Shown: positions 1 to 16,601 of the stretch, one piece after another | Layout of the letters: every line of letters starts with the position of its first letter | Position numbering within the stretch: the stretch's first letter is position 1 | Origin: Numidum massiliense | GTDB lineage: Bacteria > Bacillota > Bacilli > Thermoactinomycetales > Novibacillaceae | NCBI RefSeq assembly: GCF_001375555.1 | Contig: NZ_CTDZ01000009.1 | Coordinates: forward strand, 675,758 to 739,757 | DNA: 64,000 nucleotides | Direction of reading: 5' to 3' | Translations under genes and position numbers: made by a program | Notes under the pieces: generated by a model | The model's input: the letters and a program-made list of their open reading frames with translations, nothing else | Told to the model about the DNA's origin: nothing | The model's database searches: none

Positions 1-2
1 GG

Positions 3-605
3 CGGGCGTGGCTCGACCACACGCTGGCCGACGGCATCAACCGCGAGCTTGTGCCGGCGCCGCTAACGTGGCGCACCGTCAAGCTTCACCCGCGCAAGCT
101 GAAGGAATGCACCGAATGCGGCCGCGTGTTTTACGACTTGTCGCGCAACGGCCGTACTAGCGTGTGCCACTACCTTGGCGACGCTTGCCACTTGGCTCGC
201 GACCGCAGGCGCAAGCACGAGACGGCCGTGGCGGCAGCGTTAGCGTCGGGCAAGCGGTTAAGAGTGATCGACGGCGCGGCGCACAACTACAGCCCGAAAA
301 CACGTGAACGCATGGAGCGGCAAATGTTCGTGTACGTGTCGTGGCAAGCGGCAACGCCCGAAGAAGAGGCGTATTACACAAACATAGAGGCGGACGCGGC
401 GGGCATTGCGCGGCCGAACTTGCGGCGCGCCGATGGGTACTGGAATAGCGATAAAACACCGTGGAAAGGGCACAGCGAGGCGCCGGAGGAAAAGCAGGTT
501 AAGGCGTATAACCTGCGCGATATGACGACGGAAGAGCGGAAAGAGGCGGGATTAGAAAAATATTTTAGGAGAGTGGCAAAAGTGGGTAAACAAAACGGAA
601 GGTGA
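3..605 (+). CDS. Cys-containing putative zinc-binding protein of an integrative element, 5' end outside the window
   Basis: The reading frame is open from the left edge. A GTG at 51 is the first usable start, but sensible codons run upstream of it, so the gene probably begins outside the window. The visible part has a CTECGRVFYD zinc-knuckle half followed about 25 residues later by a second Cys/His group (VCHYLGDACH), then a basic segment and a charged C-terminus. I do not recognise a named family; a small DNA- or RNA-binding accessory protein is possible. It is the first of a run of same-strand GC-rich genes and is followed by a strong terminator at 690-729. Confidence 0.6.
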   Translation, partial: RAWLDHTLADGINRELVPAPLTWRTVKLHPRKLKECTECGRVFYDLSRNGRTSVCHYLGDACHLARDRRRKHETAVAAALASGKRLRVIDGAAHNYSPKTRERMERQMFVYVSWQAATPEEEAYYTNIEADAAGIARPNLRRADGYWNSDKTPWKGHSEAPEEKQVKAYNLRDMTTEERKEAGLEKYFRRVAKVGKQNGR

Positions 606-689
606 GTCTAATTAGTAGAGGGATAAGGCGAGAACTTGAGCACCGCCGCGGAGTGTTCAACTCCACCTTTTCCCTTCGTAAATTTGTCG

Positions 690-729
690 CCGACCTAGGC
701 AGCTTTTGCCCGGTCGGGGGCTTTTTTTT
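690..729 (+). terminator. Intrinsic terminator
   Basis: CCGACC (690-695) pairs with GGTCGG (712-717), with a nested GGCA/TGCC hairpin inside the loop, followed by eight T residues from 722. It separates the first gene from the XRE regulator. Confidence 0.75.
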
Positions 730-772
730 ATTGCCAACTTGTCACAGAAAACTATGAAAGGGGCTGTTTGTA

Positions 773-1009
773 GTGACACCAACCGACGTAAAAGCGATAC
801 GTGCACACTTTGGCCTATCGCGGCGCGAGTTCGCGGAGAAGATCGGCGTTAGCTGGTCGACGGTGCAGGCGATAGAGACAGGCCGCCGGCGCATCACCGA
901 CGAAACGCGCACGAAAATAACAAGCACATTCGATTTGTCGGCGGACGTTCTCGACACAATTCACCGCGTGAAGCTCGCGGAGCAGTATTATCGCGGGGGT
1001 GGTGATTGA
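773..1009 (+). CDS. XRE/Cro-type helix-turn-helix regulator
   Basis: A 78-residue single-domain HTH protein. Residues 6-60 follow the XRE pattern: helix 1 (VKAIRAHFGLSRREFAEKIG), recognition helix SWSTVQAIETGRR, then closing helices. The GTG start at 773 is preceded by GAAAGGGG at about 8 bases; an upstream ATG is out of frame. The stop at 1009 directly abuts the next ATG at 1010, so the two are co-translated. It is likely a transcriptional regulator of the element's small-gene operon; its operator is not identified. Confidence 0.8.
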   Translation: MTPTDVKAIRAHFGLSRREFAEKIGVSWSTVQAIETGRRRITDETRTKITSTFDLSADVLDTIHRVKLAEQYYRGGGD

Positions 1010-1348
1010 ATGACTGACGCAACCGTGAAAGTGACGCTCACGCCCACCGGCTTCCGCAAGTACGATGCGGCGGTGACGGTAGCGGCAGGCGGTGACGGCC
1101 GCGTGCTGTACGAGCATACCGCGACCTTCGCGAATTCAAACGCCGTCTTTCCCGCATACAAGGCGTTGGGAAAGGCGATTAACCACCTGCCGCGGCTTGG
1201 TGTGGAGGAAATTGACGTAGTGACCAACTGCGCGCCAATGGCGAACGAGCTAACCGGCGGCCGCAACGCAAATACGGCGCTTTTGACGATGATCCGCGAG
1301 CGGTTGGCGCAAGCGGGCGTAACTATCGGCGAGGTAACGAAAATCTAA
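1010..1348 (+). CDS. Small protein with RNase H-like topology
   Basis: 112 residues. The predicted pattern is strand (VKVTLTPTG), strand (DAAVTVAAGG), strand (RVLYEHTATF), a long helix starting ANSNAVFPAYKALGKAINHL, strand (EIDVVTN), then a short helix (CAPMANEL). This is the beta-beta-beta-alpha-beta-alpha order of RNase HI-like folds. The DEDD catalytic carboxylates are not obvious, so catalysis is doubtful. At least three later genes in this block show the same arrangement. The fold assignment is inference from pattern only. It follows the XRE gene without a gap. Confidence 0.55.
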   Translation: MTDATVKVTLTPTGFRKYDAAVTVAAGGDGRVLYEHTATFANSNAVFPAYKALGKAINHLPRLGVEEIDVVTNCAPMANELTGGRNANTALLTMIRERLAQAGVTIGEVTKI

Positions 1349-1377
1349 CACGAGAATGAGAAGGAGAGCGAGAGAGA

Positions 1378-1971
1378 ATGAGCAAACAGGAAATGATCGG
1401 GCAGAAATTTGGACGCTGGACGGTTATTGCGGCGGAACAGGACGATGTGGCGAAGGTGCGCTGTAAATGTGAGTGCGGCACGGTGCGATTGGTTCGCGCT
1501 GCGGACTTGACGGCTGGAAAATCGGGGTCATGCGGCTGCCTGCGGTCGGAAAAGACGACAACACACGGCATGTCAGGCACGCGCTTTTATAAAATTTGGC
1601 AGGACATGCTTCAACGTTGCAATAACGAAAATATAGCGGCATATCCCGACTACGGCGGGCGCGGTATTGCCGTGTGCGACCGCTGGCACACCTTCGAGAA
1701 TTTCCGCGACGACATGTACGCTGAGTACCTGCGGCAAGCGGAAGCGCTTGGCGAGCATCGAATTACAATTGACCGCGTAGACAACGACGGCAACTACACG
1801 CCGGAAAACTGCCGCTGGGCGACGCCGATAATGCAGGCGCAAAACAAGCGCGGCGTGCCCGAGCATGAGCGAGAGTTACGCGAGCTTATACAACGGTTCC
1901 TTGAATTGCAGGAAGAGGTAGAGGAATTTCTCGCGGCACAGGCGGCGGGGGCGGTGGCTGCCCATGGATAA
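1378..1971 (+). CDS. HNH-like phage/element endonuclease-family protein
   Basis: 197 residues with the layout of a common phage and mobile-element family. The N-terminal GQKFGRWTV module is followed by a Cys cluster (CKCECG, SCGCL, about residues 33-60). Next come HGMSGTRFYKIWQDMLQRC, GGRGIAVCDRW, and a C-terminal DRVDNDGNYTPENCRWAT segment resembling the HNH metal site. A coiled, Glu-rich tail (about 160-197) is added. AAGGAGAGCGAGAG precedes ATG 1378. Expected role: nicking or cutting DNA, possibly homing. Overlaps the next gene by 8 bases. Confidence 0.75.
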   Translation: MSKQEMIGQKFGRWTVIAAEQDDVAKVRCKCECGTVRLVRAADLTAGKSGSCGCLRSEKTTTHGMSGTRFYKIWQDMLQRCNNENIAAYPDYGGRGIAVCDRWHTFENFRDDMYAEYLRQAEALGEHRITIDRVDNDGNYTPENCRWATPIMQAQNKRGVPEHERELRELIQRFLELQEEVEEFLAAQAAGAVAAHG

Positions 1972-2116
1972 ATTAGACCGGAACATTGCGGAAGCAAAAG
2001 AGATCCTGCGGGATTGCATGTGGCTAATTGCGGAAGCTCGCGGCATTGTTGCGGGAGAACGCGCAGCACAGGCGCACGCCGACGAGCAGGCGGTGGCGCA
2101 GCATGTCGAAGCTTAA
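1964..2116 (+). CDS. Small helical protein of unknown function (50 aa)
   Basis: ATG at 1964 overlaps the end of the HNH gene, and the stop at 2116 overlaps the next start at 2103. This translationally coupled position supports a real gene. The sequence starts MDKLDRNIAEAKEILRD and looks like one amphipathic helix. No family is recognised. Confidence 0.5.
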   Translation: MDKLDRNIAEAKEILRDCMWLIAEARGIVAGERAAQAHADEQAVAQHVEA

Positions 2117-2486
2117 CCGTGAGCTGCGACGTCACGCCCGCCTGTACTGTGCATGCTTTGACTTGGACACACGCGACGAGTGCTTACTGGAGAAGGGCGA
2201 AGGTTGTACTTGCGCCTATTTTCGCGACGAGGGCGGCCGCTGTGCGTATTTCGAGCGCGCTGTGTTGCCCATTAACCCGCGACTAAACGAAATTTACCGC
2301 CGTTCAGTCATCGGGCACGACGACGGCATGGGCAACGCGGGCACCTGCGCCAACTGCGGGGCAGCATACGCACGGCGTAGCAACCGGCAGAAGTATTGCG
2401 AAAGCTGCCGCGACGGGGCGGCGAAAGATCGGACGAAGCTACGTGTACGCGACTACCGGCAACGACAACGCAAAACGACACGGTAA
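2103..2486 (+). CDS. Cys_rich_VLP-family protein
   Basis: 127 residues. It begins SKLNRELRRHARLYCACFD and has a Cys-rich middle (ECLL, CTCAYF), the AVLP motif that gives the family its name (about residue 58), and a C-terminal zinc ribbon CANCGAAYARRSNRQKYC. This family is typical of prophages and conjugative elements of Bacillota. The ATG at 2103 is preferred because it overlaps the upstream stop and begins the family's conserved N-terminus; the frame is open further upstream but without family-like sequence. Likely nucleic-acid binding; function unknown. Confidence 0.8.
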   Translation: MSKLNRELRRHARLYCACFDLDTRDECLLEKGEGCTCAYFRDEGGRCAYFERAVLPINPRLNEIYRRSVIGHDDGMGNAGTCANCGAAYARRSNRQKYCESCRDGAAKDRTKLRVRDYRQRQRKTTR

Positions 2487-2713
2487 ATGTAACGGTTTAG
2501 GAAAAATAAAGCCTTATGTATCAATGGTTTTCGCGCCTTAATTTTGGTGGTGGCTATGTTACTACCTAAAAGGCGTTTTTGGCGTTCTAAACCGTTACGC
2601 TGTAAATGCGCCTGTGAGGCGACTTGTTCGCGGCAGGTACAAACACCTTAGGCGCCTGCTAAAAACGCCTCACAGCGTCGTATAATCGGCCGCAATCGGA
2701 AGGGGAGGCGGAA
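2487..2713 (+). repeat. Gene-free segment with nested inverted repeats and a promoter-like -10
   Basis: GTAACGGTTTAG (2489-2500) has a perfect inverted copy at 2587-2598. CTGTGAGGCG (2612-2621) has an inverted copy at 2666-2675. A TATAAT box lies at 2681-2686 without a clear -35, ahead of the gene at 2714. The arrangement could be a regulatory region or an origin-like or nicking site; the sequence does not decide. Confidence 0.5.
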
Positions 2714-3106
2714 ATGATGGGAAAACCTGAAGGAGAGGCGACGGAAGAAGCACGCCCGCAGCCAACGCGCCTGTTTAGCGCCTACGAGCGTACAGTTACG
2801 TTTTCAGCCGGCGTGGCGCGCACGACGGTGATACTCTACGACATCGACGCGGACAAAGTGCACAGCCGAACAACGCGGCTGGCGGTGCGCAGTCGGAAAT
2901 CCACTACCGCGCGGCGAATTGCGTTTAACCGACTGCGGAAGTGGGCGAAAGAAAACGGGGAGGTGCCGGCGGTGTTAAATGGGGACGACATAGACGCAAC
3001 AGGCATACCGCGCGACTTGAAACCAACCGATGAACTCCGGGCGAAGTTGGAGGCGGAAGCGGACGAAGAGGCGCGAGGGGAGGCGGCGAATGATGGCGAG
3101 GCCTAA
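2714..3106 (+). CDS. Small acidic-tailed protein of the element, possibly RNase H-like
   Basis: 130 residues with a strong ribosome site AAGGGGAGG before ATG 2714. The core has strands (ERTVTFSAG, ARTTVILYDID, SRTTRLAVRSR) followed by a helix (STTARRIAFNRLRKWAKENG), a partial match to the strand-strand-strand-helix pattern of its neighbours. The last 30 residues are very Glu/Ala rich. It opens a new transcription unit after the inverted-repeat segment and overlaps the next gene by 17 bases. No named family. Confidence 0.55.
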   Translation: MMGKPEGEATEEARPQPTRLFSAYERTVTFSAGVARTTVILYDIDADKVHSRTTRLAVRSRKSTTARRIAFNRLRKWAKENGEVPAVLNGDDIDATGIPRDLKPTDELRAKLEAEADEEARGEAANDGEA

Positions 3107-3437
3107 ATTTCACGTCGTACAACATGCGTATGTAGGCACGCACGGCAAGACGTACGTGCTGACGGTCGTTGAATCGGGTGGCAAAACCTTCCGGCATACG
3201 GAAGAACACGAGCCGTACCCACTGTACGACTGCGCGCTTGACTGCTGGCAGCTGACGCGTGACTGGCTGCTTGACGAATTCAACGCGCGACAGATCACGC
3301 TAAACTGCAACGTGCTTGGACAGATCGAAGTAGACGCGGACGGCAACGAGCGCACAATCGACCAGACCGGCGCGCTGGCGTTTGCGGAGGAACTGCGACA
3401 AGGGGCGAAGGAGGCGCGGGAGAATGGAGGAGAGTAA
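3090..3437 (+). CDS. Small protein with RNase H-like topology
   Basis: 115 residues from ATG 3090, preceded by GGGGAGG. Pattern: strand (KFHVVQHAYV), strand (KTYVLTVVESG), strand (KTFRHTEEHEP), helix (LYDCALDCWQLTRDWLLDEF), strand (QITLNCNV), then a helical tail. It overlaps the upstream gene by 17 bases and the downstream one by 14, so it is tightly coupled. No active-site DEDD set is apparent; a structural or decoy role is possible. Confidence 0.6.
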   Translation: MMARPKFHVVQHAYVGTHGKTYVLTVVESGGKTFRHTEEHEPYPLYDCALDCWQLTRDWLLDEFNARQITLNCNVLGQIEVDADGNERTIDQTGALAFAEELRQGAKEARENGGE

Positions 3438-3840
3438 AGATCATGCACGACGACCCGAGTCGCAAGTGACGCGGGCAAAGGTGGTTGTCATGCGGCACGA
3501 GCAAAACGGCTTCGGGGTTGGCGTTGAGCTGCTGCGGGAGGGCGAAGTTTACCGCGTATTGTCGCTATGGATTGACGATGAGCAAATAACGTCTACGCGG
3601 CAGGTGCTGCATTTTGCGTGTAAACGCGTGATGGACGCCGTGGACGACGACACCAAGCTTATTATATTCGTCGCGCAGAACCGGCACTTCCTAAAAGCGC
3701 GGGAGCTTTCCGCGGCGATGAAGCTGCACAAGCCCGACATAGACGCGGTGTTTTATAGGGCAAAAACGCTGCAAGGTGACGCGTGGGCGCTTGCACAAGA
3801 CGCGTGCGAGCGGCAAACAAACATTATATCGGACGTGTGA
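3424..3840 (+). CDS. Small protein with RNase H-like topology
   Basis: 138 residues from ATG 3424 (AAGGAGG nine bases upstream). Order: strand (KVVVMRHEQNG), strand (FGVGVELLREG), strand (YRVLSLWI), helix (TSTRQVLHFACKRVMDAV), strand (KLIIFVAQN), helix (HFLKARELSAAMK), strand (DAVFYRA), helix. This is the most complete RNase H-like secondary-structure series in the block. An in-frame extension upstream to 3382 lies inside the previous gene and lacks a ribosome site. Function unknown. Confidence 0.6.
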   Translation: MEESKDHARRPESQVTRAKVVVMRHEQNGFGVGVELLREGEVYRVLSLWIDDEQITSTRQVLHFACKRVMDAVDDDTKLIIFVAQNRHFLKARELSAAMKLHKPDIDAVFYRAKTLQGDAWALAQDACERQTNIISDV

Positions 3841-3869
3841 CGAACAAAAATTGCGAAGGAGACGATAGC

Positions 3870-4238
3870 ATGACGAAAAACAAAGGCAACAACGACTGGA
3901 CGACGCAACGGGCGGCACTCGATCGCGAGGTACTCGACTGCAAGGAGGTTATCACGCGGTACAAGCAGACACCGCGGCCGTATCGCGACGTGACCGACAG
4001 CGAGTATGCCCACGCCAGAAAGCGGCTGATCGAAGCCGCAACGGAAATCAAGTATGGCGACTACGAGGCGGCCAAGCCGGCTGATCCGTACGCGAGCATG
4101 TCGCTGGCACAGCTACGGGCGCAGCAGGAGGCGTTTAACAAAGAGCTGGCGGAGCGGCGCGAGGCCGGCGGGCGCGCCAGCCGCCAGGGCTTTGCGGAGG
4201 GTATTACGTCTCTCTTATCAAACAACAGGTGGGCATAA
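3870..4238 (+). CDS. Charged helical protein of unknown function (122 aa)
   Basis: ATG 3870 follows GAAGGAGACG. The product is strongly helical and charged (KRLIEAATEIKYGDYEAA, SLAQLRAQQEAFNKELAERR), lacks Cys and has no recognisable motif. It sits in the same operon 30 bases after the previous gene and overlaps the tiny reading frame at 4229. Confidence 0.55.
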   Translation: MTKNKGNNDWTTQRAALDREVLDCKEVITRYKQTPRPYRDVTDSEYAHARKRLIEAATEIKYGDYEAAKPADPYASMSLAQLRAQQEAFNKELAERREAGGRASRQGFAEGITSLLSNNRWA

Positions 4239-4345
4239 AAGAGCACTCTTACACCTTGCGCCGGAAGGACTTCGCGAAGGTTATGACGCTGGCCGCCCGC
4301 ATACAGGCGCTGGCGCAGCAGGAAGGCGCAGGCGATGGCGAATGA
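4229..4345 (+). CDS. Possible tiny coupled gene (38 aa)
   Basis: GTG 4229 overlaps the end of the preceding gene, and its TGA (4343-4345) overlaps the next ATG at 4342 (ATGA). The peptide is basic then acidic (KEHSYTLRRKDFAKVMTLAA). The exact start is uncertain because the frame continues upstream and no good ribosome site is seen. Confidence 0.35.
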   Translation: MGIKEHSYTLRRKDFAKVMTLAARIQALAQQEGAGDGE

Positions 4346-4824
4346 GGTATTCACTGCACCTTGCGACCGCCGCCGACGACAAGCGCGGGGCTTACGCCTA
4401 CTGCATTACGAATTACAAAGGCGAGCAGGCGCGGGGCGTGTTTGTGACCGCGGGCAGGCGGCGCTTTGACGAAAACTACACCGCACATGTCGCCCTGCAG
4501 CGGGCATTACGGCACGCGGCGCGGCTGGGCGGCATCATTCAGCTAACGGTCGTGCTCGACCACAGCTTAATTGACGCGATTGGCTATGAGCTGGGCGGGC
4601 TAGAGCCGCCAACATATGCGACCCTGAGCCGCACCACCACGCGGCTGACCAAGCGGTTTACTAGCTGCGACCTTGCGGCAATGTCCAACGAGGACGACTT
4701 ACAGCCCGGCGAGGCGACGGCGGCTGACGAGGCGCTGGACGCGCTGGAGCACTACCGCACGCTTAAAGGCCGTTGGCAGCTGTGCCGCGACGCAATTGTG
4801 AACCCGCGAAAACTAATAAAATAA
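4342..4824 (+). CDS. Small protein with RNase H-like topology and helical tail
   Basis: 160 residues from ATG 4342, coupled by ATGA overlap. N-terminal part: strand (YSLHLATAAD), strand (GAYAYCITNYKG), strand (QARGVFVTAG), helix (TAHVALQRALRHAARLGG), strand (IQLTVVLDHS), helix (LIDAIGYEL), again the RNase H-like order. The tail from about residue 105 is helical and acidic. The frame is open further upstream to 4054, but that part lies inside the two preceding genes and is not credible. Confidence 0.6.
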   Translation: MRYSLHLATAADDKRGAYAYCITNYKGEQARGVFVTAGRRRFDENYTAHVALQRALRHAARLGGIIQLTVVLDHSLIDAIGYELGGLEPPTYATLSRTTTRLTKRFTSCDLAAMSNEDDLQPGEATAADEALDALEHYRTLKGRWQLCRDAIVNPRKLIK

Positions 4825-4841
4825 CGAGGAGACGATTAACT

Positions 4842-5483
4842 ATGAAAATTTCCAGCGAATTGCAACGCCTAATGGACGCATACGAGAGCGAAGACAAAGC
4901 GAGCGACGAGCGCAGCAGCCGCGCAGCCACGCAGGTGGACGAGCTGACAGCGGAACTTGCCGCGGCCAAGCACAAACTGGAGCAGGCGATTGACGCGACG
5001 TTAGAAGATCCGACGGCCGCGAACGAAAAGGCCGAGCTTGAGGCGCGTAAGGCGGTATTCGACCTGGAATTGCGCTTACAGGGCGCGCAGGAGCGTAAAA
5101 AGCGGGCGTTCGGTTTCAATGACGCCCGCAAGGAGGCGCTGGCGCAGCAGGCAATCGACAAGGCGCGGGCTGAGGCGGCGGAATACTACGCAAAAAAGCA
5201 GCCGAAAGCGGCGCAAGCGGTGGCCGACGCAAAGCTGGCGTACCTGAACGCGCTGGCCGATTACCACGACTTAGGCGAAGAGGCGCAAGAGATTTACTAC
5301 GGCACGGGGCGACAGGTAGGCTGGACGGGCGACCTGCAACGCATCCACATACAACCGTTGTACCCGTTCTATAGGCTCGGAGACCGGCAAATTTACGGCG
5401 TAAGTGAGGTCGAGATCGACCGCGCATACAATCGCGGCGTGATTGAGCGGCGATCCGTCGAAGAAGGCAAGGAACGGGGCTAG
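4842..5483 (+). CDS. Coiled-coil protein, last gene of the element's plus-strand block
   Basis: 213 residues from ATG 4842 with ACGAGGAGACG upstream. Residues 1-140 are a long Ala/Glu/Lys-rich coiled coil. The C-terminal 70 residues contain aromatic and loop segments (IHIQPLYPFYRLG, GVSEVEIDRAYNRG) that look like a small globular end. No signal peptide or membrane segment. Family unknown. The next landmarks downstream are a promoter-like sequence and the tRNA fragment at 5645. Confidence 0.6.
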   Translation: MKISSELQRLMDAYESEDKASDERSSRAATQVDELTAELAAAKHKLEQAIDATLEDPTAANEKAELEARKAVFDLELRLQGAQERKKRAFGFNDARKEALAQQAIDKARAEAAEYYAKKQPKAAQAVADAKLAYLNALADYHDLGEEAQEIYYGTGRQVGWTGDLQRIHIQPLYPFYRLGDRQIYGVSEVEIDRAYNRGVIERRSVEEGKERG

Positions 5484-5550
5484 GCGGCGCGACAAGTCAA
5501 TGCTGGATTGGCGGCGTGGTGGCTTAACAGCGGCCGCGCCTAATTTTTTC

Positions 5551-5579
5551 TTGCGGAGTGGCGCTACCTACGGTATACT
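5551..5579 (+). promoter_or_regulatory. Sigma-A-type promoter pointing toward the attachment site
   Basis: TTGCGG (5551-5556), 17-bp spacer, TATACT (5574-5579). There is no gene between it and the tRNA fragment, so on an excised circle it would read across the att junction into the other end of the element. Confidence 0.5.
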
Positions 5580-5582
5580 ACA

Positions 5583-5612
5583 TAGGACAGACGGTAGGAC
5601 AGCCGAAGGACA
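5583..5612 (+). repeat. Short direct repeats next to the attachment site
   Basis: TAGGACAG occurs at 5583-5590 and 5595-5602, with a related AAGGACA at 5606-5612. The spacing is close to one helical turn and the group lies just inside the element border, as recombinase arm-type sites do. Function is inferred. Confidence 0.35.
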
Positions 5613-5644
5613 AACGCGCACACAGCGTACACATACCGCGGAGG

Positions 5645-5691
5645 CCTTGACACGGTGGAGGTCGGAAGTTCGATCCTTCTACCGCCCACCA
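5645..5691 (+). other. 3' half of a tRNA-Val(GAC) gene: probable att site of the integrative element
   Basis: From 5645 the sequence reads as a tRNA from the anticodon loop onward: CCTTGACACGG (anticodon GAC), a GGAAG/CTTCT T-arm around TTCGATC, 3' acceptor strand ACCGCCC, discriminator A and CCA ending at 5691. The 5' part (acceptor GGGCGGT, D-arm, proper anticodon stem) is missing; bases upstream of 5645 do not pair. Integration of an element into the anticodon loop leaves exactly such a 3' remnant at the distal end and restores a whole tRNA at the other end. The remnant is followed by a terminator, so chromosomal DNA starts here and the element lies to the left. Confidence 0.75.
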
Positions 5692-5696
5692 CACGC

Positions 5697-5724
5697 AAAA
5701 GACGCGGACTTTGCCGCGTCTTTT
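5697..5724 (+). terminator. tRNA gene terminator
   Basis: A perfect 11-bp stem AAAAGACGCGG/CCGCGTCTTTT (5697-5707 and 5714-5724) with a 6-base loop, directly after the tRNA remnant. Confidence 0.8.
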
Positions 5725-5826
5725 ATGCATTTATGGGCGTTGGACTGTTTAGAGACATTTTTCGACAGTGTGGCGCTCCTAGATTTCGCAAAGTAATGCC
5801 CCACGTTTTCGTGCGGTAAAACATCG

Positions 5827-5931: not shown

Positions 5932-6306
<375 letters not shown>

Positions 6307-6411
6307 TTAAACTATCGGTCTCAGACACTTTTTTTCCAGTATCAGTCTAGTGTTTACGGAACCCAACATAGACGTCTCGGTTGAAAGGTTAGTGCACTTT
6401 GAACGGATTAT

Positions 6412-6822
6412 TTATTGTTCGCCATCATTCCCACCTTCCCCGTTGCAATGTTCGCGTATAACCTCCCACAACTTCATTAACGTATTGATGTTGCGCTCCG
6501 AATCTTGGGCAATGCTATGTAACATCTCTGCATACTCGGGGTGTTTCTTCACTTTTTCTAGTAAGATAAATTCATCGCTTGTCACGTATGTGTTCCGGTC
6601 TTCCACGACGACCATTGGTGCTGGCGATTCCGTTCGACCGAGTAAAAAGTCGGTCGTTACGTCAAATAAGTCGGCTAATTTCATTAAGGTACCGTAATCT
6701 GGCTCGCGATTGCCTGCCTCATAATTGGAATATGTGCCTCGGTGAATCCCTAGTTCATTTGCGATATCTTCTTGTGTAAGCTTTGTTTTTTTCCTCAATT
6801 GCGTTAGTCGGTTTCTAAACAT
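6412..6822 (-). CDS. XRE-family repressor (phage cI-like)
   Basis: 136 residues. N-terminal HTH: FRNRLTQLRKKTKLTQEDIA, ELGIHRGTYSNYEAGNREP, DYGTLMKLADLFDVTTDFLLG. The C-terminal 70 residues are helical and probably dimerise. I prefer the ATG at 6822 (GAGGTG upstream) over one eight codons earlier, because MFRNRL is the usual N-terminus. The divergent promoter at 6911 carries operator-like dyads, so this is likely an autoregulated repressor of the small plus-strand unit that follows. Confidence 0.85.
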   Translation of the reverse strand: MFRNRLTQLRKKTKLTQEDIANELGIHRGTYSNYEAGNREPDYGTLMKLADLFDVTTDFLLGRTESPAPMVVVEDRNTYVTSDEFILLEKVKKHPEYAEMLHSIAQDSERNINTLMKLWEVIREHCNGEGGNDGEQ

Positions 6823-6890
6823 CGCCTGCACCTCAATAAGTATCATTAAGTGTATTATAAAGCCTCAAATTGAATCGTTTAATAAAATGC

Positions 6891-6939
6891 GTCGAAATGA
6901 CTAATATATATTGACATGCGTCGTATCGACTCGTATACT
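6891..6939 (+). promoter_or_regulatory. Consensus promoter with repressor operator dyads
   Basis: TTGACA (6911-6916), 17-bp spacer, TATACT (6934-6939). GTCGTATCGAC (6920-6930), a perfect dyad, fills the spacer, and a related GTCGAAATGAC lies at 6891-6901, 29 bp upstream, both within ATGCGTCG repeats. Binding of the adjacent XRE protein here would block the promoter. The repressor's own -10 is probably the reverse TATAAT near 6854. Confidence 0.7.
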
Positions 6940-6981
6940 ATTTATTAAATAATCTTCATAACGACACGTTAGAGGGGATTT

Positions 6982-7180
6982 ATGCAGTTTGTGAAAAGTT
7001 TAGTGTCAATATGAAGCTGTGAATGCCGCTGTTTCCACTGGCGATGTTTTAATTGTGCAGCTCGCGAACGGACTTAGCTGGGCTAAAGCGGTAGATCGTG
7101 AGACGTTCCAACGCATCCAACGGTTGGCGCTCGAATCTCTCATCGTCGGGGCGATCGCTTCAATTAAGGTGCCATTCTAA
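6982..7180 (+). pseudogene. Broken small gene under the XRE-controlled promoter
   Basis: A well-placed start (AGAGGGG before ATG 6982) opens a frame of only ten codons (MQFVKSLVSI). An overlapping frame, with a GTG at 7019, continues to 7180 and encodes a plausible 53-residue sequence (AVSTGDVLIVQLANGLSW, then a helix). A single frameshift near 7000-7010 would join them. Either the gene is broken or the short frame is a leader peptide. Confidence 0.35.
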
Positions 7181-13297: not shown

Positions 13298-16200
13298 GTT
13301 TGGATCTTACCTATGAGGAATTGAAACAGGCTCATACGGGTTGAGCCGCGATACACCGCTCCGCGAGTTTGGATCTTACCTATGAGGAATTGAAACTAAA
13401 ATCGATCATTACTTGTACTTGTTCATCTGACAAGTTTGGATCTTACCTATGAGGAATTGAAACTCGCGTAGCGCCCATGTATCAGCCGGAATGTACAGGT
13501 GTTTGGATCTTACCTATGAGGAATTGAAACGTGTCCGGGACATGGTCAACCTGCTCCGGGAGGCCGGTTTGGATCTTACCTATGAGGAATTGAAACTGAA
13601 AGAATATTGGGGTGTTCATCGTGGAATGAACAGGGTTTGGATCTTACCTATGAGGAATTGAAACCCATGACCGTCTCCTTTCGATGCTTCTACTTGTATC
13701 GTTTGGATCTTACCTATGAGGAATTGAAACCGGGGTTCGTCGATTATCTCCGAACCACCTATGACAGTTTGGATCTTACCTATGAGGAATTGAAACAAAC
13801 GCTTAGGGCGTCTTCGATCCTCTCCCGATCAGCTGTTTGGATCTTACCTATGAGGAATTGAAACATCAGTGATGTATTTCTGAATGTACCGTTGGTCAAC
13901 GAGTTTGGATCTTACCTATGAGGAATTGAAACTAAATCTCTGCCAACTCGCCAAACGTAACAAACTCGGTTTGGATCTTACCTATGAGGAATTGAAACAA
14001 AGTCATGTCAGGTGAGGCATATAATAGTGCTTCGTTTGGATCTTACCTATGAGGAATTGAAACATCCCAGCCATCCCACACTCGTTCCTCCGCGCGCCCG
14101 TTTGGATCTTACCTATGAGGAATTGAAACACGCTAATGCCGGTAACTAACGGCGCTAGCGCGTAGAGTTTGGATCTTACCTATGAGGAATTGAAACAAAG
14201 GAATGACGATCGGCATCATCGGAGGCTGGCGCCGGTTTGGATCTTACCTATGAGGAATTGAAACCCTGCTGGCACCTCGCGAATTACCTTGATGTACTCA
14301 CCAGTTTGGATCTTACCTATGAGGAATTGAAACTCCGAATGCGGCAGCTCGTCCCCTTGAACCTGGAAGTTTGGATCTTACCTATGAGGAATTGAAACCA
14401 AGATCGTCATAATCCAGCCCTATTTCGATTTTCGTTTGGATCTTACCTATGAGGAATTGAAACAGTATAGTGACAGAGTGAAAGAGATCGTTGCGGTGGT
14501 CGTTTGGATCTTACCTATGAGGAATTGAAACGTCGCGGCTAAGCGAGAATTGAGCGCGAGCGGGAGTGTTTGGATCTTACCTATGAGGAATTGAAACTCC
14601 CGTTTTGTGATCAACCCGTACTCCGATTTGGAGGTTTGGATCTTACCTATGAGGAATTGAAACCTGTGAGTGGGATTTCCCCGCTCTGGCACGTAAGCGT
14701 TTGGATCTTACCTATGAGGAATTGAAACCACCACTCGGACACCTTTTCAGGCGCTGGAATGGCCGGTTTGGATCTTACCTATGAGGAATTGAAACTCTAA
14801 TCTGGTCGGTATTCGATAACATCTTCGATTTTCGTTTGGATCTTACCTATGAGGAATTGAAACTCCCGCACAAGCTTTTCCATCCAGCCGAAGTCTTGTT
14901 TGGATCTTACCTATGAGGAATTGAAACTAAAATCTGGTCTCATCCTCGTCCAAGACCCGAAGAAAGTTTGGATCTTACCTATGAGGAATTGAAACACTGA
15001 GGATGAAATACGACGGCGGTTAGGCGTTGCTATGGTTTGGATCTTACCTATGAGGAATTGAAACGGTGTGGCGCGCAGGGTTCACGGGCTAGTGCCGCGT
15101 GTTTGGATCTTACCTATGAGGAATTGAAACGGAATCCAGCGTTGAGTAGCTTGTTTCCGAGCTCTGTTTGGATCTTACCTATGAGGAATTGAAACATTGT
15201 CATCTGCATCGCCTGTTCTCACCAGACGAATATGTTTGGATCTTACCTATGAGGAATTGAAACCGGCTGTACAGAAAAGATAACCGCGACGAGGTATTGA
15301 GTTTGGATCTTACCTATGAGGAATTGAAACGACGCTGGAGTTCACGGGGACATCCAAAAGGGGGCGGTTTGGATCTTACCTATGAGGAATTGAAACGGTG
15401 CTACCACGTCGTCGCGCTGAATTCCAGAATCTTTCAGGTTTGGATCTTACCTATGAGGAATTGAAACCACTGTTCAACCAGGTATTAGAACGGTTCGGCG
15501 CGGAGGTTTGGATCTTACCTATGAGGAATTGAAACATATATGGGGACATGTTGTTTCCATCCGGTCGTGCAGTTTGGATCTTACCTATGAGGAATTGAAA
15601 CCCGATATCGAGAATGTGGATTGGCCGCACGCGACCGTGTTTGGATCTTACCTATGAGGAATTGAAACGTCGAACGAGACAAAGGTGTTTAGCAGCGAGC
15701 ACAAAGTTTGGATCTTACCTATGAGGAATTGAAACGGGAACAATGATATTTGTTAGTGTCTTCATTTCAATGTTTGGATCTTACCTATGAGGAATTGAAA
15801 CGAAAAAATCCAAGAAAAAAATAACCAAAAGGAGAAGTTTGGATCTTACCTATGAGGAATTGAAACCTGCGCATCGCCGACGATAGCACATTGAAGGTGA
15901 TGGTTTGGATCTTACCTATGAGGAATTGAAACTTGTACGGGATATTCGTGGAAACAAAGACAATCCGGTTTGGATCTTACCTATGAGGAATTGAAACCTA
16001 CTATGCAGGCTAGGAATAGTCTAGTGTTTTCAAGTTTGGATCTTACCTATGAGGAATTGAAATGTGATTTCCGCACTGAAAGATTCTGGCATCTCGTGGG
16101 AGTTTGGATCTTACCTATGAGGAATTGAAATCGAAAGACAGGCGTGTACCCGTACGTCGAAGCGCCGTTTGGATCTTACCTATGAGGAATTGAAATATCT

Positions 16201-16601
16201 CGACAAACACGATCCGACCGCCAGGAAACAAACAGTTTGGATCTTACCTATGAGGAATTGAAATACCCACGGGGCGTTCAAAGATGTGCTCGCGTACGAC
16301 GCAGTTTGGATCTTACCTATGAGGAATTGAAATAGAAGAAAATACAAAAGAAGAACAAGACGAAGAACAAGTTTGGATCTTACCTATGAGGAATTGAAAT
16401 CTCGTCCCTAAGGCCATACGAGGATAGAAAAGTGAAGTTTGGATCTTACCTATGAGGAATTGAAACGATGTATTCTACAGTTTCTCGGTACCACGCTCGG
16501 GAGTTTGTATCTTACCTATGAGGAATTGAAACCAGTAATACAGGTGATACCTTTTACCGAGCGCATTTTGAGTTTGGATCTTGCCTATGAGGAATTGAAG
16601 T
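13298..16601 (+). CRISPR. CRISPR array, 50 repeats of 30 bp and 49 spacers
   Basis: The repeat begins GTTTGGATCTTACC and ends GAGGAATTGAAAC. Spacers are 34-41 bp, mostly 35-39. Repeats 1-41 and 48 match by eye. Repeats 42-47 (from 16034, 16102, 16167, 16235, 16304, 16371) end AAAT instead of AAAC. Repeat 49 (16503) has GTTTGTATC. The last repeat (16572-16601) has an A-to-G in the middle and an altered 3' end, marking the leader-distal terminus. The ATTGAAAC 3' end is typical of type I-B and some type III arrays of Bacillota. No cas gene exists anywhere in the window, so processing must depend on Cas6 and effectors encoded elsewhere, or the array is an orphan. Confidence 0.97.

Follow-up and report, generated by a model that had tools for sequence, protein, structure and literature searches.

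The right border of a 15.9-kb integrative element at a tRNA-Val(GAC) gene of Numidum massiliense, and its kinship with other tRNA-inserted elements

Positions 5645-5694 of the stretch of DNA analysed here (the window; 64 kb, G000:C9:675758-739757) are, with near certainty, the attR site of a 15.9-kb integrative element inserted at a tRNA-Val gene. The element extends over about G000:C9 665528-681451, and it can be stated with high confidence that the rebuilt tRNA gene at its far end is the matching attL. An equally firm conviction attaches to the explanation as a whole, in which the element is one of a set of tRNA-inserted elements of 5.0-18.5 kb sharing a phrog_2467 protein, mostly with a related integrase beside the tRNA. 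This type of border is textbook material; its value lies in the exact ends and in a clean element from a little-studied lineage. Moreover, the border leads to recurrent tRNA-inserted elements in which a terminase small subunit (TerS) and a short tape-measure protein (TMP) can be found, while searches for TerL, portal and tail tube came back empty.

Structure of the element ends

Positions below are those of the window or of L003, a 19-kb stretch spanning both repeat copies (L003 position = C9 position - 663999; window position = L003 position - 11758).

G000:C9:665528-675757: the 10.2 kb of the element left of the window
L003:1626-1652: triple GGACA direct repeat just inside attL, 11- and 11-bp steps
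L003:1748-2806: tyrosine integrase, 352 aa (Phage_integrase 3.1e-34, phrog_1 3.9e-53)
Window 1..5644, + strand: right-hand 5.6 kb of the element
Window 5585..5612, + strand: triple GGACA direct repeat of the right end, 12- and 11-bp steps
Window 5645..5694, + strand: attR core, a 50-bp copy of the tRNA-Val(GAC) 3' part from the anticodon stem-loop to CCA, plus CAC
Window about 5695..5728, + strand: hairpin right of attR, folding at -19.1 kcal/mol

The original prediction, made from the window alone, had described a 47-bp 3' remnant of tRNA-Val(GAC), followed by the tRNA terminator, as the right border of an integrative element, and had expected an intact tRNA-Val(GAC) carrying the same bases, together with an integrase gene, beyond the left edge of the window. 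Both are present. ARAGORN, which calls no tRNA in the window, finds an intact tRNA-Val(GAC) at L003:1501-1575, 15.9 kb left of the attR copy and last in a tRNA array Met-Asp-Met-Val, and the integrase ORF starts 172 bp past it. When the own genome was searched with window 5500-5800, the only place matched besides the query itself was G000:C9:665528-665577, which is identical to window 5645-5694 (100% over 50 bp). This repeat consists of tRNA positions 29-75, thus confirming the 47-bp remnant, plus CAC. The remnant had been said to start at the anticodon loop, which is right in substance, the exact start being two bases 5' of the loop. A chance repeat was rejected, as the 50-mer, with up to three mismatches allowed, occurs twice in L003 and in none of 200 shuffles.

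Regarding the terminator expected after the remnant, a strong hairpin is indeed found there (z -4.9; 1 of 200 shuffles equally good), but a simple terminator pattern scan did not list it, in our opinion because its T run lies mostly inside the stem. This hairpin probably terminated the tRNA operon of the chromosome before the element inserted. At the other end, a terminator-like hairpin lies 3' of the rebuilt tRNA (L003:1583-1610) and is weak by folding (z -1.6; 13 of 200 shuffles equally good).

The two GGACA triplets listed above, one per end, are the only ones in L003, with none in 200 shuffles, and the 64-kb window contains a single one. Because such same-strand repeats just inside both ends resemble the arm-type sites of tyrosine integrases, they are probably arm-type sites of this integrase, a role suggested by position and likeness. 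Among the relatives examined, just one relic has the GGACA triplet as well; it lies in G001, the nearest genome, from another genus of the same family. Chains of 5-base repeats follow the tRNA in 3 of 13 elements and precede the 3' copy in 2 of 12, the present element included.

The element was expected to the left and the chromosome to the right. This orientation agrees with the element genes, which occupy the left side, and with the GC content, which falls from about 0.6 left of attR to 0.40-0.48 immediately right of it. The exact 50-bp pair, the integrase and the paired GGACA triplets likewise support the predicted right border. The first 2 kb right of attR, AT-rich and harboring a short ORF and an XRE-type regulator, may be acquired DNA too. 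Within them, window 5932-6846 was noted as an AT-rich region that contains the short ORF, GIY-YIG-like by eye, and the XRE regulator and is possibly older acquired DNA.

On this explanation, integration took place as follows. The tyrosine integrase encoded just inside the left end recombined the chromosomal tRNA-Val gene with a circle that bore the final 47 bp of tRNA-Val(GAC), with exchange at the anticodon stem-loop and the triple GGACA repeats inside both ends as the probable arm-type sites. A complete tRNA gene was thereby rebuilt at the left (attL) and acquired a new terminator-like hairpin, and the displaced 3' half remained at the right with the old terminator. Excision by the reverse route, replication as a circle and mobility of the element can be proposed from the same arrangement.

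Extent, assembly and flanks

The assembly has a single N inside the element at L003:11758, directly before the start of the window. The 256 bp on either side of it are identical, which resembles a scaffold join of overlapping contig ends, and since the same protein stretch is read from both copies, one continuous gene across this position is likely. The continuity of the element at this point rests on the 256-bp overlap, and the length of 15.9 kb may exceed the true one by about 0.26 kb. Part of it looks decayed: at about 3.9-5.7 kb of L003, the only long ORF is a HicB-like one matching just the start of its family.

The left flank can be taken as old chromosome because a gene about 2 kb upstream of the tRNA array recurs just upstream of the same array in G001, with 77% identity over the 95 aa compared. 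The comparison contained one genome per species, and an element-free site was sought in this nearest genome: the upstream gene is common to both, but the right flank has no match at the tRNA-Val locus of G001. In the 6-19 kb downstream of tRNA-Val(GAC), the integrase was detected in none of 19 relatives at E 1e-3 (19 of 20 such stretches were taken, G014, 67% complete, being excluded).

Further observations concern this tRNA in other genomes. G001 harbors a lone tRNA-Val 3' half (L041, G001:C1:1585210-1585255; 96% identity over 46 bp) at 0.9 Mb from the tRNA gene. Three TTGATGTAAAA-like repeats lie before it, and after it come a hairpin and a GGACA triplet with 11-bp steps; the surrounding 55 kb contain no match to this integrase, and the locus is a relic of an att end of this type. 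Behind the tRNA-Val of the same genome, one can see by eye a hairpin as well as a pair of GGACA words with 11-bp spacing (L040:1136-1240), perhaps a second relic, at the native site. In G016, an integrase N-terminal-like fragment was seen by eye downstream of tRNA-Val(GAC) (L045:690-850), which suggests that the site may be used often in the order; it was not reported by tblastn with this integrase. Each of two relatives has a pair of whole tRNA-Val(GAC) genes, at L060:217-291 and 6942-7016 (6.7 kb apart) and at L063:6570-6644 and 6876-6950 (0.3 kb apart).

Kinship of the integrase

The only other match to the 352-aa integrase in the own genome is distant (27%). Among 60 relatives, the best match (38%) is encoded in G030 beside tRNA-Ala(GGC). 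In a tree of 17 integrases, a clade with 100/99 support unites the present element, a Caldalkalibacillus element at tRNA-Val(GAC), the Bacillus temperate phages KLEB27-1 (vB_BauS_KLEB27-1) and phi18-2, whose integrases are 50% and 45% identical to that of the element, and a Paenibacillus taiwanensis locus. Before int, both phages display, by eye, direct repeats of about 11 bp, a tRNA 3' half and more repeats, the half having a GAC anticodon loop in KLEB27-1 and being tRNA-Ala(GGC)-like in phi18-2. In P. taiwanensis (L082:3330-3680), the 5' half of tRNA-Ala(GGC) runs by eye toward the integrase gene with no adjacent 3' half, and this copy seems broken. Owing to these tRNA halves next to int, the clade seems tied to Val(GAC) and Ala(GGC). 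Both phages also encode HTH_36 or helix-turn-helix proteins beside int. Unlike the 15.9-kb element, in which no virion gene is convincingly recognised, these phages are 64-65 kb long and have virion genes.

Gene content of the element

From the left, the element encodes the integrase, an HTH_36 protein resembling phage replication initiators (phrog_1835 1.2e-36), two small XRE-type genes on the opposite strand, one with a partial HicB match, and HTH and ParB-like ORFs. Then come a phrog_1733 protein, an XRE protein, a 413-aa P-loop protein, another XRE protein, an HNH endonuclease, several unknowns and, before attR, a coiled-coil-like protein. The 413-aa protein matches phrog_2467 (1.5e-69), of unknown function in PHROGs; it is called "helicase" below as shorthand for a putative activity. 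Genes in the window part of the element include the following (window positions).

773..1009, + strand: XRE-type HTH protein, 78 aa (HTH_3 2.9e-11)
1010..1348, + strand: 112-aa protein common to Laceyella-type elements (28-30% identity, E 2e-4 and 3e-4)
1378..1971, + strand: HNH endonuclease (phrog_374 1.4e-57)
2028..2486, + strand: Cys-rich protein, 152 aa, common to the Virgibacillus and Caldalkalibacillus elements
3382..3840, + strand: 152-aa protein common to the Cytobacillus praedii element
4054..4824, + strand: 256-aa ORF, true start probably internal, common to the Virgibacillus element (cluster 13)
4773..5483, + strand: 236-aa ORF, the final gene ahead of attR, with 53% identity to a protein of the Virgibacillus element

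The 78-aa XRE protein has a relative in the Virgibacillus element and another, over 40 aa, in a Macrococcoides canis plasmid. The 112-aa protein is RNase H-like by eye, with no match in the Pfam and PHROG searches; the Cys-rich protein matches Cys_rich_VLP below the cut-off (4.9e-5), and the 236-aa ORF is coiled-coil-like by eye.

Overall, the element is small and combines int, regulators and replication-type genes, so named by family, without a full virion set. The 20 ORFs scanned against Pfam and the 20 scanned against PHROGs yielded no relaxase, conjugation, portal, capsid or tail family; a complete prophage was accordingly rejected for want of a convincing virion gene, and an ICE or IME for want of a relaxase or transfer gene in the Pfam scan. 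Virion and packaging queries from KLEB27-1 and Sporosarcina phage Lietuvens, as well as the TerS and TMP profiles of the family, had no match in the element. One 111-aa HTH ORF was considered as a TerS candidate (phrog_7067 6.4e-4) and discarded, since other HTH or transposase families score higher and the family TerS profile does not match it. PADLOC gave nothing convincing (best 2.9e-4, an HTH), and megablast of the element against phages gave no match.

Related tRNA-inserted elements

Relatives of the phrog_2467 protein can be found in 55 phage records (SPbeta-like and others), all below 60% identity, and in 28 plasmid records, including two Macrococcoides circles of 10-12 kb. In the 42 genomes of the own order, the protein was detected at E 1e-20 only in the own genome and in G030. 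Among the matches listed, SPbeta-like phages have the phrog_2467 protein at 36.7-40.3% identity, and also a phrog_1733 protein (48% over 155 aa), in genomes of about 124-134 kb, as against 15.9 kb for the element.

An alignment scan of species genomes with this protein, in which the best 80 of 125 relatives were used, showed that at 20 of the 80 loci the helicase gene is flanked by a tRNA gene on one side and by a copy of the 3' end of that tRNA gene on the other, at a distance of 5.0-18.5 kb from each other, loci ended by contig edges being scored as misses. An integrase lies within 1.2 kb of the tRNA in 16 of these 20 bounded loci, and a related integrase is present at E 1e-10 in 48 of the 80. 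Eleven of the bounded loci are from Bacilli, the others being Clostridia-like apart from three proteobacterial or desulfobacterial ones. In viral contigs, where the alignment scan found 103 loci and 80 were kept, the layout of tRNA, helicase and 3' copy occurs in 0 of 80, a poor control as most of these are slices of +-10 kb from much longer contigs; a single-protein scan of viral contigs confirmed no relative.

Thirteen elements were compared, namely the present one, the 11 bounded Bacilli loci and the Caldalkalibacillus element at tRNA-Val(GAC), whose right end lies beyond its contig; the comparison leaves aside the nine other bounded loci. The helicase is encoded in every one of the 13, as is a related integrase next to the tRNA, and some also share an HTH_36 replication-initiator-like protein. 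The tRNAs used are Val(GAC), Ala(GGC), Leu(CAA), Ser(CGA, TGA), Arg(CCT, TCT, CCG) and one called SeC by ARAGORN. Kinship of the present element with other tRNA-inserted elements through integrase and helicase is well supported.

Two side observations concern such loci. In a Laceyella-type element (L049, G009:C2), the tRNA-Ala 3' half recurs at 11.1 kb and again 1.9 kb further, which reflects tandem or successive insertions at one site. In two pairs of viral-contig loci with same-source names (L155/L214 and L157/L174), one locus has the element-type integrase and the other a second phrog_2467 copy; the second copies lie in a contig >150 kb, and L157 and L174 are on one contig.

Packaging and tail genes, and the possibility of a phage satellite

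The first of the possible lifestyles, to which somewhat less than an even chance is given, is that of a phage satellite, or of one whose packaging genes have been lost; the helper moving it would be of the KLEB27-1/Lietuvens type. It is favored by the content of elements with the same core. A short TMP can be found in 7 of the 13 compared elements and TerS in 5. A protein of 567-699 aa is common to five of them, and the one scanned with profiles, from Caldalkalibacillus, is a TMP (PhageMin_Tail 3.7e-57; phrog_1533 4.5e-126); PHROGs also identify as TMPs a 661-aa protein of Bacillus sp. DNRA2 and a 614-aa one of Virgibacillus. As for TerS, the Paenibacillus qinlingensis protein (the only one of five scanned) matches phrog_7344 at 2.5e-19. 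The Lysinibacillus fusiformis element has in addition a major head protein (phrog_1328 6.6e-80; 49% identical to the Lietuvens MCP) and a scaffold-like protein, detected with the Lietuvens query and not through PHROGs, and two elements have DUF2577, which Lietuvens encodes in its tail region. A weak match of the Lietuvens scaffold to a Laceyella element (45 aa, 2e-4, outside long ORFs) was not counted.

By BLAST, five of the seven TMPs match that of KLEB27-1 or Lietuvens, both phages of about 65 kb, e.g., 47% over 311 aa in P. qinlingensis, and three of the five TerS match the KLEB27-1 TerS. Queries from the same two phages for TerL, portal, major tail or tube, sheath, Dit and baseplate-J found nothing in any of the 13 elements, the Caldalkalibacillus one being incomplete. 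The Virgibacillus element shares the last genes of the present element and continues with TerS, and the integrase of the present element has its best phage match in KLEB27-1. For these reasons, the relatives bearing TMP or TerS look like phage satellites.

Against this reading, six of the 13 elements, the present one included, have neither TMP nor TerS, and neither the Lysinibacillus MCP nor the Paenibacillus TerS had a match in the own genome, in searches run without a positive control. The DNRA2 and Virgibacillus TMPs are unmatched to those of KLEB27-1 and Lietuvens by BLAST. Nor is a short TMP proof of a satellite, since phage D6E has one with an annotated length of about 636 aa. The window's element may move as a phage satellite, and this is more likely for its TMP- or TerS-bearing relatives.

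A more specific proposal, put forward tentatively, is that the element belongs to an undescribed satellite family of Bacilli, whose members would integrate at tRNA genes, replicate by means of the phrog_2467 protein and take over KLEB27-1/Lietuvens-like virions through their own TerS and a short TMP (567-699 aa vs 934 and 914 aa in KLEB27-1 and Lietuvens), giving shorter tails. The window's element would be a stripped member keeping only integration, control and replication.

The phage satellites called PICIs, cf-PICIs and Vibrio PLEs are likewise small integrated elements, and TerS and TMP genes are present in some relatives of the window's element, as far as the available part of PMC12987554 allows the comparison. 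These satellites have other hosts, and the window's element itself has no TerS, TMP, capsid gene or known helper. In the same part of that source, the alteration of tail assembly by a satellite's own TMP is described for Vibrio PLEs in 2026: PLE11 brings its own TMP and gives chimeric tails about 10 nm shorter, putative tmp genes are mapped in cf-PICIs and other satellites, and the benefit is said to need further work (PMC12987554). A Gram-positive panel with and without TMP would make this benefit testable. A Pseudomonas helper-satellite pair with a satellite of 16.8 kb has also been reported (PMC4936722, available part). In the portions available, the literature joining satellite, tape measure, PICI and terminase small subunit concerns SaPI capsids. 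Searches on satellites with tail or Bacillales, on both phages and on attP, tRNA and terminators, with a coverage mostly outside subscription journals, returned no description of the element family, a silence that is weak evidence of novelty.

Other possible lifestyles

As a second possibility, entertained with more reserve, the element may be an integrating plasmid-like replicon without its own transfer system. Two circular Macrococcoides plasmids, p19Msa0936-1 and pMiCAN82c (10.5 and 11.9 kb), typed as non-mobilizable, encode a phrog_2467 protein with 40-41% identity and an HTH protein related to the initiator-like protein of the element (30-38% over 112-148 aa). However, these two proteins and the 40-aa XRE match are all that they share with the element and, unlike it, they are not integrated and have no annotated integrase.

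That the elements are decayed prophages, trimmed separately in each host, is unlikely. Several element genes do have phage relatives, some regions look decayed, and the best profiles for the TMP and minor head protein of Virgibacillus are matched only in their C-terminal parts. Yet, in different species and at different tRNAs, the elements show the same gene set, similar sizes (11.8-17.3 kb in the 12 two-ended ones) and direct repeats of at least 30-45 bp, an outcome hardly expected of independent decay, although these 12 were chosen for clear ends, a choice that favors the argument. Finally, the 3' half at window 5645-5694 is most improbably a chance or non-integrative tRNA fragment: such fragments can come from rearrangement, as the lone 3' half of G001 recalls, but this one comes with an integrase, paired end repeats, a GC step and recurrence of the layout in related elements.

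CRISPR array in the window

The idea that the element is a target of the CRISPR array in the window was dropped, as none of its 42 spacers matches the element; outside the array itself, other loci yielded just two weak spacer matches, 17 and 20 bases long. The array lies at window 13298-16601, with 44 matches to a 30-bp repeat (up to five errors), and includes one 439-bp stretch that departs from the repeat pattern.
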